DNA from: Leucosporidium creatinivorum
Lineage: Eukaryota > Basidiomycota > Microbotryomycetes > Leucosporidiales > Leucosporidiaceae
DNA: 36,198 bases
NCBI GenBank assembly: GCA_001600635.1
Contig: BCKL01000018.1
Location: 568,814-605,011, forward strand
Direction of reading: 5' to 3'
Within the stretch, counting starts at the first letter, position 1. The number at the start of each line of letters is the position of its first letter. Positions 1 through 36,198 of this stretch are shown in pieces. The translations under genes and the position numbers were made by a program. The notes beneath the pieces are model-generated. The model did no database searches and was not told the DNA's origin. It worked only from the letters and a program-made list of their open reading frames with translations.

Positions 1-95
1 GCTTCCCCATTCCTCGCTACGTCGTCACCGACCAAGGAGGATCGCAGGCTCGTTTCCTCCTCTCCAAGCTCAACCCTTCAACTACCCACGTCTCG
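1..95. repeat. Left arm of 95-bp perfect terminal inverted repeat (SEC23 exon)
   Basis: Bases 1-95 are the exact reverse complement of 36104-36198. Both arms lie wholly in Sec23 coding exon. Identity stops abruptly: the next 10 exon bases already differ at 3 positions. The true repeat may extend beyond the window on both sides. Confidence 0.97.
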
Positions 96-449
96 GGCGG
101 CCAGCGTGAGTCGTCTCTCCTTCCTTCTCTTCCTGCCTTTCGCCGGCCGCTCCTGAGCTCGCTGCTCGGCGCTGAGCTTTCGCCGAACGCTGGAAGCTGA
201 GACTGATCTGAACCTCTCGCTCGCCTACAGAATACGCCGGTGGAACGCCTCAAGGACAGGCCATCTTCACCGACGATGTCTCGCTCCAGATCTTCATGGA
301 GCATCTCAAGAAGTGAGCTGCCGTGTCCCTTCTGGCTCCGGCTTGCTGCTCGCCAGGGAGCTCCCGCTGGGTACCCACCGTCACCGAAGAGCAACGCTGA
401 CCTCGTCCACTTTCTCTCCCACAGGCTGGCGGTATCGGGCTCGTCGTAG
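1..449 (+). CDS. SEC23: COPII coat subunit Sec23, copy A, C-terminal end (5' partial)
   Basis: This is the last 69 codons of Sec23, the GTPase-activating subunit of the inner COPII coat that buds vesicles from the endoplasmic reticulum. Exons are 1-105, 231-312 and 425-449; the gene enters from outside the window. The protein contains [17 protein letters not shown], then [17 protein letters not shown], and ends LAVSGSS. This is the C-terminal gelsolin-like region of the family, whose usual ending is TDDVSLQ..M.HL..LAVSG. Introns begin GTGAGT and GTGAGC and end CTACAG and CCACAG. A second, inverted Sec23 end lies at the right edge; both have exactly 212 bp of coding sequence here. The product assignment is secure. 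Whether copy A is intact upstream cannot be seen. Confidence 0.92.
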
Positions 450-1552
450 AGGGATCTCGGCGAGGGGAGATGGAGCGAGGGCTTGCTGCTGTAGTCTGGG
501 ACGGTACTAGTAATAACGCGGTTTCTGTTCTCAGTGTGATACGACTGCCTGCTATCGCTCGGTACAGCGAAAGCTTCCGAAAGGCTATCTTGCCCGTTCA
601 ACTTCCACGCGAGAAGTGAAGGTTTCCCCTTCGCAGAGCGCGAGCTGCAGCTGCCGGACGTCGACGGCGCGCTCGGGCCTCCTACGAACTGCAAGGAGAT
701 ATTGTAGATGCGTGCAGTATAGTAGTAGAACCAGTAACTCCTGATGTACCACAGAGCCGGGAGAAGTGACGGCGCCGGTCCTCGATCGTGTAGAGCTTCC
801 TTCTCCCGCCGAGCTGAGGCTTGCAACGCGTCGTCGCGGTCCCGTCTTATTTGTTCCTTCTTCTTCGCCCACTTCGCCCAGCTCGTTTCGCTCTCGCTCT
901 ACAGCTCGCTATTACGGTACAGCAGGAGTAGATCAGCCACCTCACCACAGCACTGCGACTCTCGAAGCTATCGCAGCAACCTCTCCCGCCTCCTCCCAAC
1001 TCTCGCTCAAAACCAACGACTGCAGCTCCAGCTTTGACAGCGGACTTACTCGTCTACATCGTCGACTTCACCCCAAGCCACTCGTTCAATCACTCCTACC
1101 GTCCTACAACTCTTTTGAGCTAGCGACCTGCACCACCCCCCGAACACGCTCGTTCAGCACACGGCCCCCTTCTTCGCCCTACAAAGCTCTCCCGCTCTAT
1201 AGTGGAGCAAGTTATTAACTCGTCGGTCGATAGCACTACACTCTTGGACCCGTTTGGCAACCCTCGGCGCCCTCCCAACCCCTCGAACGAACGATAGCTG
1301 GAACCACGCTAGGCCAACCCCGAGCTCGCCTCTGAATCTCGGCCGCTTCCCTTCGAGCAGCCTCAGCAGCTACCTACAGGACAGAACGTATCCTCGGTCG
1401 TTCCGCCTCGCCCTTCTCAACCCTCCACCAGCAAGCGCTTCGCGTCCTCGTCTTTCGCAACGCAGGTCGTCCCTCCTTCGCTGGCCATCGGACCCACTCT
1501 CAACCCAACAGCCACCAGATCCTCTTCTACTAGGACCACTACCAACATCAAA
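450..1552. other. Intergenic: SEC23-A 3' region and long leader/promoter of the transporter gene
   Basis: About 1.1 kb without a supportable gene. The first part should hold the Sec23 3' UTR. From about 830 to 1550 the + strand is rich in C and T, typical of fungal promoters and leaders. Open frames here have low-complexity Ser/Pro/Arg translations and no recognisable domain. One open frame ends at 1556, overlapping the transporter ATG, but it has no ATG of its own. Confidence 0.6.
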
Positions 1553-34085: not shown

Positions 34086-35157
34086 CTACTGCGCAGACTT
34101 CTGGTCCTTTTCCCTCTGCTCCTTCATCGCCCTGTAGGCTGCTACGGCCTTCACGCGCTCCTGCTCCATCATCGCCTTGAGCGCTCCGCTGACGGGCATC
34201 CTGCTCGCCGGCAGCGGCTCCGTTACGGTCGTCGTCTTCTGCTTCCGCCCTGCCTTGCTCAGTACTGGTGGCGCCTGCACCACGTCCGACACGTTCCTCT
34301 TCTGCGTTGCCTCCTCGAATTCGGTCGCCCGCGCTGGCTTGGCCTTGGGCACGAATGGGTCGACCGAGGTGGAGGGAGTGGCTTTTGGCTTGACCTTGCC
34401 GGAGGGCAGGGTGGTGGTGGTGTCTTGTACGACGACCTCCTCTTGCTCGCCATCCTTGCCCTTCGCCTCGCCGGGGTTGGCCTTCTTGGCCTTCTTCTTC
34501 TGCGCCGAGGCCTTGGAGGCGCGAATGGCGGTGTCGATGGAGGGGCGAAGGGCCATCTCGACACGACGGTTGAAGGTACCGAGTGATTCGTAGGGGAGAG
34601 GAGTGAGGGCGACCTTCTGCGAACCGGGGGAGAGAGTTGTGTGAGCTCGGCGAGGCTGACGAACGGCAGGCTCGGCGGCGAACCTTCTGATTCGGGTTCT
34701 TCTTGTTCTCCTCTTCTTCGAACTTGCGCTTCTTGTTCTGTTGGTACTCCTCGCGAAGCGCACCGGCGTTCAAGATCCTGTAGGCAAGCGCTGGGTCAGC
34801 TCGCAGCTTCGCAAGAGTTGGAGCGGCTAGCGCACCTATGCATGTTCTTCGACAGTCCACCGAGATCCTTCCTGCCTCCAAACGAATCCTTCTTGTCCTT
34901 TGGCTGCTCCTTCTTGGCTCTGCGCTTCTTGGCTTCTGGAGCAAGAACGCCGACGGGTTTTGAGGAGGAAGCAGCGGCGACATGATTAGGGTGAGGGATG
35001 GAGTCGCCGGCGGTGGGAGCGTTGTCATATCCACTGCAATACGGATCAAGGTCAGCTGTAGCTCTCTAGAGCCCTTCGAGGCTGGAAAAGCGGAAGAGAC
35101 GCACGCTGCTGCTGTGGCCGCATCGCGAATGCTTCGTTTCTGCTTCTTGTGAGGCAT
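34086..35157 (-). CDS. Small Lys-rich, probably nucleolar protein (CCDC137-like?)
   Basis: Four exons: 35157-35105, 35033-34836, 34777-34684, 34616-34086; 291 aa. The protein is very basic. It starts MPHKKQKRSIRDAA, has Lys/Arg tracts such as EAKKRRAKKEQPKDKK, NKKRKFEEEENKKN and QKKKAKKANPG that look like nuclear/nucleolar localisation signals, and ends in a helical basic segment (MMEQERVKAVAAYRAMKEQR). One more conserved-looking stretch, LPYESLGTFNRRVEMALRP (about 121-139), resembles the short shared motif of CCDC137-type proteins, but I hold that name lightly. It is convergent with the carboxylesterase gene (255 bp between stops). Exon structure is well supported by frame; function is a guess based on composition. 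Confidence 0.68.
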
Positions 35158-35658
35158 GCTGGGGTGTGAGACGTTCTGTAGGGCACTGGCTGGTCAGGTT
35201 GAAGCTTCGGAGAACGGATCTGCTGAAGTCGCGGACAAGTAAGGTTGCGAGCAGAGGCAACCTGCGAAGCTCTCGCGGCTCTCTTCCTGCGCCTCGTTCG
35301 TCCCCCGGTTAGTATTTCGACTTTGTCCCTGCCAAGCTACATGTGTACTTGGTAGACTATCTGCACCTTCCAAGACCTGATTCGGAGCCTTTGCACGACA
35401 CAGCGCTCGCCTTTGACCTCCGGATCTCTTGGTGCTGGGGGTTCGTTCTGTAGTGCTGTTGGTTCCATAACCGTGCTTAATTCCGGTGTCACCATCGCCT
35501 GATCCTGGGCGCGAGAGCGAACACCCGGAATCAGCTATCTCGGCGATGAGGCAGCTGGATGCGAAGGTCGAATGCTCTAATATAACATGCTATGCTTCGC
35601 CGACACGCTAAGCTACTACGAGACGACCGGTATGTCCCCTTCGACGATTGACGAAGAC
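35158..35658. other. Intergenic: promoter of the Lys-rich gene and SEC23-B 3' region
   Basis: 501 bp. I looked for tRNA, 5S rRNA and repeats and saw none. The part nearest 35659 is presumably SEC23-B 3' UTR. Confidence 0.55.
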
Positions 35659-36198
35659 CTAAGCGTTACCTGTTGACGACCGAGAGGTCAGCACTGGGCG
35701 AAAGGATCGACCGAGATGCTCGACTCACCAGTTACAGCGAGTCTGTGGTTTGAAAGAAGAGGGAGAGCGAAGAGAAAAGGTCAGTGAGATCTTCGGTATG
35801 CAGAGCTGAATCGAGACGGACTTTTTGAGAGACTAGGAAAGAGGAACGGACGGTCAGCGACGGAGCTCATGCCGGAACGAAAGAAGACAACTCACCTCCA
35901 TGAAGACTTGCAGGGATACATCGTCGGTGAAGATGGCCTGTCCTTGGGGCGTTCCACCAGCGTATTCTGTAGGCGAGCGAGAAGTTGGGGTCAGCCTGGG
36001 CTTCCCGCGAGGAGGAGCTCGGCGGAGCAGCGTTCGTGGGAGGCGAGGGAGGAACGGAGCAGGGGCGAAAGCTGAGGGAGGAGCACGACTTACGCTGACC
36101 GTTCGAGACGTGGGTAGTTGAAGGGTTGAGCTTGGAGAGGAGGAAACGAGCCTGCGATCCTCCTTGGTCGGTGACGACGTAGCGAGGAATGGGGAAGC
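35659..36198 (-). CDS. SEC23: COPII coat subunit Sec23, copy B, C-terminal end (5' partial)
   Basis: Second Sec23 C-terminus, entering from the right edge and pointing left. Exons: 36198-36094, 35966-35896, 35832-35822, 35742-35729, 35669-35659. These sum to 212 bp, exactly as in copy A. The protein ends [24 protein letters not shown], a good family ending (yeast ends LAVSGQA). Copy A and copy B share two intron positions; B has two more, after the GAG codon of FME and within the Gly codon of TGN. This leaves exons of 11, 14 and 11 nt. Each intron has GT-AG ends and a CTGAC-type branch (CGCTGACC, CACTGACC, GTGCTGACC). The first intron is 127 nt versus 125 nt in A, diverged except near the acceptor. 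The splicing model is inferred but fits frame and family ending very well. Confidence 0.88.
36104..36198. repeat. Right arm of 95-bp perfect terminal inverted repeat (SEC23 exon)
   Basis: Exact reverse complement of bases 1-95, within SEC23-B coding exon. It reaches the window edge, so its full extent is unknown. Confidence 0.97.

Follow-up and report, generated by a model that had tools for sequence, protein, structure and literature searches.

The window analysed here is the whole 36,198-base stretch C18:568814-605011, the final contig of the 605,011-base scaffold C18 in an assembly of 27.7 Mb in 63 contigs. It is a single contig holding one N in total (position 8762); it is bounded on the left by a scaffold gap of 4,810 Ns (C18:564004-568813) and on the right by the point where scaffold C18 ends. 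SEC23, the Sar1 GTPase-activating subunit of the COPII inner coat, is usually regarded as a single gene in most fungi, whereas two copies in inverted orientation occur here, one at each edge of the window:

Positions 1 to 449, plus strand: 3' end of SEC23-A, with exon pieces 1-105, 231-312 and 425-449 and a stop codon; a spliced model with predicted splice sites.
Positions 1 to 95, plus strand: 95-bp block, an exact inverted match; a contig-edge overlap (K-1 for K=96) in the third-last coding exon of SEC23-A.
Positions 450 to 35658, no strand assigned: spacer genes, namely a TPT transporter, an M17 aminopeptidase, a BAG-domain gene, HSP70, an F-box gene, a kinesin, a nitronate monooxygenase, Snf7, PIG-S and a carboxylesterase.
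Positions 8188 to 11946, plus strand: second inverted duplication, a mosaic with 95.4% identity to C18:543258-547000 on the opposite strand.
Positions 35659 to 36198, minus strand: 3' end of SEC23-B, with pieces 36094-36198, 35896-35966, 35822-35832, 35729-35742 and 35659-35669 and a stop codon; predicted splice sites.
Positions 36104 to 36198, minus strand: other copy of the 95-bp block, at the right end of C18, an end-to-end overlap with C8:1-95.

The spacer genes were named by comparing 30 stop-free frames with Pfam and keeping matches above the curated threshold. A preliminary description of the window had it bounded by a tail-to-tail SEC23 pair; the inward-pointing 3' exons bear this out, with the restriction that only the 3' ends of the two genes lie inside. 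In the spliced models, both copies have a predicted intact C-terminus with a stop, and SEC23-B has two introns more than SEC23-A in the modelled 3' ends. The 75-residue C-terminus of SEC23-A matches Sec23A with an E-value of 6.2e-23 and the C-terminus of SEC23-B with 1.7e-21, the first residues of both being taken from scaffold C8, where the rest of a SEC23 gene is located (C8:1-2820, minus strand). A 376-residue stretch of this body (C8:524-1651, minus strand) matches Sec23A with an E-value of 5.4e-121, and this stretch and both C-termini match the Sec23A and yeast SEC23 chains. The spliced models have 790 residues each, the C8 body standing in for that of copy A, which is absent from the assembly and whose place is the 4,810-N gap.

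The count of SEC23 loci in the full assembly that had been proposed gave one assembled body, two 3' ends and no third gene, the 376-residue query hitting a single place in the genome. Two other sites with a Sec23_trunk domain were considered as SEC23 and rejected, as they match Sec24. In the available passages of one study, Archaeplastida are described as having an old Sec23 paralogue, and fungal Sec23 copy numbers are absent (PMC4419792).

Bases 1-95 had been reported to equal the reverse complement of 36104-36198, with 95/95 identity followed by an immediate drop, and this was reproduced, the exact match ending at base 96. A 29-base probe from the block finds two sites in the window at up to three mismatches, compared with a maximum of 0 in shuffled sequence (n=100). 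Across the genome, the 95-mer occurs at three places, all of them contig ends: C18:568814-568908, C18:604917-605011 and C8:1-95. At the other side of the gene, the contig edge ahead of the gap (C18:563909-564003) is repeated exactly by another 95-mer, C8:2726-2820; one base beyond it, C8:2821 is an N, where copy A's contig has a called base. Exact K-1 overlaps of 95 bases are therefore present at both branch points, involving four contig edges and one place internal to C8, and a single assembled gene body is joined by two flanks on its 5' side and two on its 3' side.

The length of 95 and the exact window edges are products of the assembly, not of biology. The description of the block as sharply bounded holds for the step at base 96; the outer edge, in contrast, is a contig edge and not a sequence boundary. 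If the Ns described below mark differences between the two copies, the identical run would extend on C8 to base 303. Adjacent unipaths overlap by K-1 bases, so that unipaths of K=96 would leave overlaps of 95, and from this overlap length we infer that the genome was assembled with ALLPATHS-LG-like K=96 unipaths. As stated in the available part of the source, a default ALLPATHS-LG run uses K=96 unipaths, and its assemblies hold ambiguous bases and gaps (PMC5905499). The present assembly resembles these in its K=96-type ends, ambiguous bases and gaps, and differs in that its assembler is deduced from the overlap length.

Scaffold C8 carries 36 Ns between bases 304 and 2821, all single except one adjacent pair. 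Thirty are coding, and all 30 fall at codon position 3; 23 of them are silent for any base, and the remaining seven could be so or not. Among the six noncoding Ns, five lie within the first intron, and body introns 2-7 have none, copy A's introns being unread. Over the ten stretches counted, three near-identical pairs hold 89 Ns in 14,415 bases, whereas the 83,373 other bases hold 0, a class that takes in the 88% tRNA-bearing flank, a tRNA pair and the dispersed repeat of locus L013. This count left out L001-L007, L010, L014-L018 and L023-L035. In these, the C8 Ns appear again in L002, L005, L006 and L016, a scaffold gap in L015, and scaffold starts that are wholly N over 300 bases in L027, L030, L034 and L035; the remaining left-out loci have no Ns.

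Because the Ns in the stretches counted are confined to near-identical pairs, and because C8:2821 is an N opposite a called base in copy A, they are most likely inter-copy differences. With every coding N at a third codon position, those in the body most likely mark differences between two copies under selection. The strict third-position rule is particular to SEC23, since the 24 coding Ns of a BAG-domain gene pair on C8 are spread 8/3/13 over codon positions 1/2/3.

With Ns taken as differences, 30 of the 521 silent sites of the body differ (Ks 0.060), an N-derived value that is a lower bound, and the near-identity of copy A's body depends on the Ns. By segment of C8, the silent differences amount to 0/52 (1-303), 2/94 (304-811), 8/51 (812-1007), 1/205 (1008-2119), 19/106 (2120-2633) and 0/12 (2634-2820). 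The first of these segments has no N at its 52 silent sites nor at its 81 intron bases. None of 20,000 random placements equalled the densest 361-base N stretch, of a width picked post hoc, and 2.3% of them matched the longest N-free run.

The 95-base block, which is read in both copies, has 24.7 silent sites and no difference at any of them. In the 3' exons past the junction, a small sample, 14.8 of 27.2 silent sites differ (Ks 0.97, Ka 0.115), giving a Ka/Ks of ~0.12 past base 95, and 32 of 38 residues are identical. A recount agrees with the earlier figures for these exons: of the 10 exon bases that follow, 3 differ, as do 7 of 71 bases in the next shared exon, six of the seven being silent. 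The introns had been called almost unalignable, which overstates their divergence: for the first 3' intron, the two copies can be aligned at 68% (score 43.5, shuffle best 12, n=200). Compared along the genes, as had been suggested, silent-site identity falls in a steep step, from a Ks of 0.060 in the body to 0.97 in the 3' exons, and such a sharp change from near-identical to diverged within homologous genes is the pattern by which conversion between paralogues is recognised. On the 5' side, homology halts after 124 bases and then resumes (1.3 kb, 88%); the resumed part holds a 411-base exact run (416 by shared words) and a tRNA-Glu gene, and a tRNA-Glu(CTC) gene flanks each SEC23. By eye, the flank common to both arms resembles an aldo-keto reductase, but this identity is not supported: Pfam gave a single sub-threshold match (E-value 0.035, 13.6 bits; cut-off 24 bits) and none for the frame on the other arm.

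Taken together, these data favour, with a probability of about 0.83, an old inverted SEC23 duplication that was mosaically homogenised by gene conversion and then collapsed by the assembler. Two real SEC23 genes would lie tail to tail on one chromosome, ~36 kb apart, and the old inverted duplication would also have included a tRNA-Glu gene along with neighbouring sequence. By converting each other, the inverted arms would keep the body near-identical from the 5' leader up to the last 39 codons, counting the stop; these codons and the 5' flank have diverged. As the probable cause of the near-identity, conversion would account for identity over silent sites, and apparently over introns too, as well as for its sharp stop inside an exon. 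Bodies homogenised to this degree would be expected to collapse: an assembler with 96-base unipaths would fail to separate them, place a single merged copy at the start of C8, write N at differing sites, leave a gap for copy A's body and terminate C18 where the paths fork. This branch point would then be what the window edges and the exact 95 bases represent, and copy A's body would be complete and equal to the C8 body apart from the Ns. The preliminary description had posed conversion and an assembly path as alternatives; both are supported at once, by the silent step and the 95-mer ends, and do not exclude each other. In support, both copies of the second inverted pair nearby are assembled, and this pair, too, has a mosaic structure in which exact stretches occur together with stretches of 83-98% identity.

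The phenomenon belongs to a known class, the concerted evolution of duplicates. In the portion of the literature source available, conversion is described as keeping the silent divergence of duplicates low, with dosage selection proposed as a reason for conversion to persist (PMC3924837), and low silent divergence is likewise found between the SEC23 copies. For the yeast whole-genome duplicates treated in that portion, the homogenised region is almost always coding only (PMC3924837), whereas here introns 2-7 are also N-free. No report of this SEC23 pair was found in the literature searched, a partial sample that gives no proof of absence. The locus would provide a case of inverted coat-protein gene duplicates held together by conversion. 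It also illustrates that duplication of an essential gene can be concealed by short-read assembly, here as one SEC23 body broken at the edge of a scaffold and two detached tails. Such a collapse is recognisable by exact K-1 ends together with Ns confined to duplicated, here silent, positions, and its recognition lets two scaffolds be joined.

Several other readings were weighed against this one. Copy A's body may have diverged and merely be unassembled, so that the shared end blocks would measure 95 to ~300 bp and conversion would be restricted to small patches. The gap estimate of 4,810, which is 2,180 above C8:96-2725, fits this possibility, and short A-specific pieces could have been dropped. 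However, the Ns span C8 304-2821 and the coding ones are at third positions in 30/30 cases, as merged reads of a conserved second copy would be, and the N at C8:2821 corresponds to a base that is called in A's own contig; a diverged body is accordingly considered improbable. The low body Ks of ~0.06 could alternatively reflect a recent duplication without conversion, in which the body is young and the 3' ends were altered by rearrangement or rapid change. This is very improbable, as the 3' ends are homologous (32/38 residues), with a Ka/Ks of ~0.12 and two introns different, like old functional homologues, and the divergence within the body is clustered rather than even.

Hardly credible is an assembly artefact only, that is, one SEC23 locus with a misjoined end, or a mixture of two alleles or organisms, even though the exact 95-bp identity sits at contig ends. 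A misjoin leaving one locus is unlikely. Both 3' ends are on the single 36,198-base contig with its one N, and their introns and neighbours differ, which makes a mixture of alleles or organisms unlikely; two different 5' flanks, a spacer (11900-31500) without a near-identical second copy and 0 Ns in the 83,373 other bases likewise speak against an artefact. An own-genome search with spacer 11900-31500 (E-value threshold 1e-5) returned only HSP70 gene pieces at 70-91%. A hybrid, diploid or mixed genome is unsupported, with no near-identical second copy of spacer 11900-31500, L009 or L011; their own-genome matches are all short or low (70-91%, 66-95% and 77-91%, respectively), and, with the 83,373 N-free bases, they give this part of the genome neither a diploid nor a mixed appearance. 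A mating-type region was considered separately and rejected, because STE3 matches occur only on C25 and those of Homeobox_KN, the homeobox family searched, only on C24. These matches, an STE3 receptor at C25:435951-436551 and a Homeobox_KN at C24:378905-379027, are on different scaffolds.

Further inverted pairs are found around the junction. The pair at 8188-11946 has exact runs of 1297, 128, 311 and 410 bp, and the window's only N (8762) is mirrored in its partner; since this N lies inside the longest exact run and is mirrored in both copies, the length of that run may be inflated by merging. The same part of the window matches a further site at C18:451261-453180 (89%) and, partly, scaffold C8 (80%). 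A BAG-domain gene is contained both in window 8272-9984 and in an inverted pair on C8, at C8:48177-50222 and 58876-60921 (L020 1177-3222 and L021 876-2921). Over L020 1230-3155, the two copies of this C8 pair differ at a single N/base column and have 25 mirrored Ns in common, as though the same merged sequence had been written out twice. An inverted tRNA-Glu(CTC) pair is present at C8:158387-159975 (L022 387-609 and 1757-1975), with 95% identity over 225 columns and its members ~1.1 kb apart. No local inverted near-identical pair was found in window 11900-31500, L009, L011 and L013 (49.6 kb of 27.7 Mb). In L013, bases 1-1241 (C8:798000-799240) are a dispersed repeat that accounts for 43/44 of this locus's own-genome matches, and bases 1-966 match 11 other contigs at 65-91%.

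On the preferred reading of a converted and collapsed duplication, either 5' flank must join one of two 3' ends that both bound one contig, and scaffolds C18 and C8 should therefore be adjacent on one chromosome of ~1.64 Mb, for either orientation of the spacer. The orientation itself is supported solely by the scaffold gap. The gap estimate of 4,810 exceeds by 2,180 bases the 2,630 expected from C8:96-2725, perhaps because copy A is longer or because the estimate is inaccurate. A bolder and rather unlikely proposal is that the C18/C8 junction is a hotspot of inverted gene pairs converting each other, and that the SEC23 spacer may flip, with both orientations present in the species. The members of such a hotspot would be SEC23 (~36 kb apart), two BAG-domain gene pairs and tRNA-Glu pairs, and an essential coat gene would serve as a recombining arm. 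The cluster of inverted pairs and the possibly flipping spacer are the more interesting leads.

The left end of C18 (C18:1-120) lies inside another dispersed repeat, ~106 bases long, which recurs at 14 further places with 85-99% identity, and scaffold C8 terminates in a run of 80 Gs, perhaps an artefact. CCCTAA-like repeats, with which C4 begins, are absent from the outermost 400 bases of both C8 and C18.
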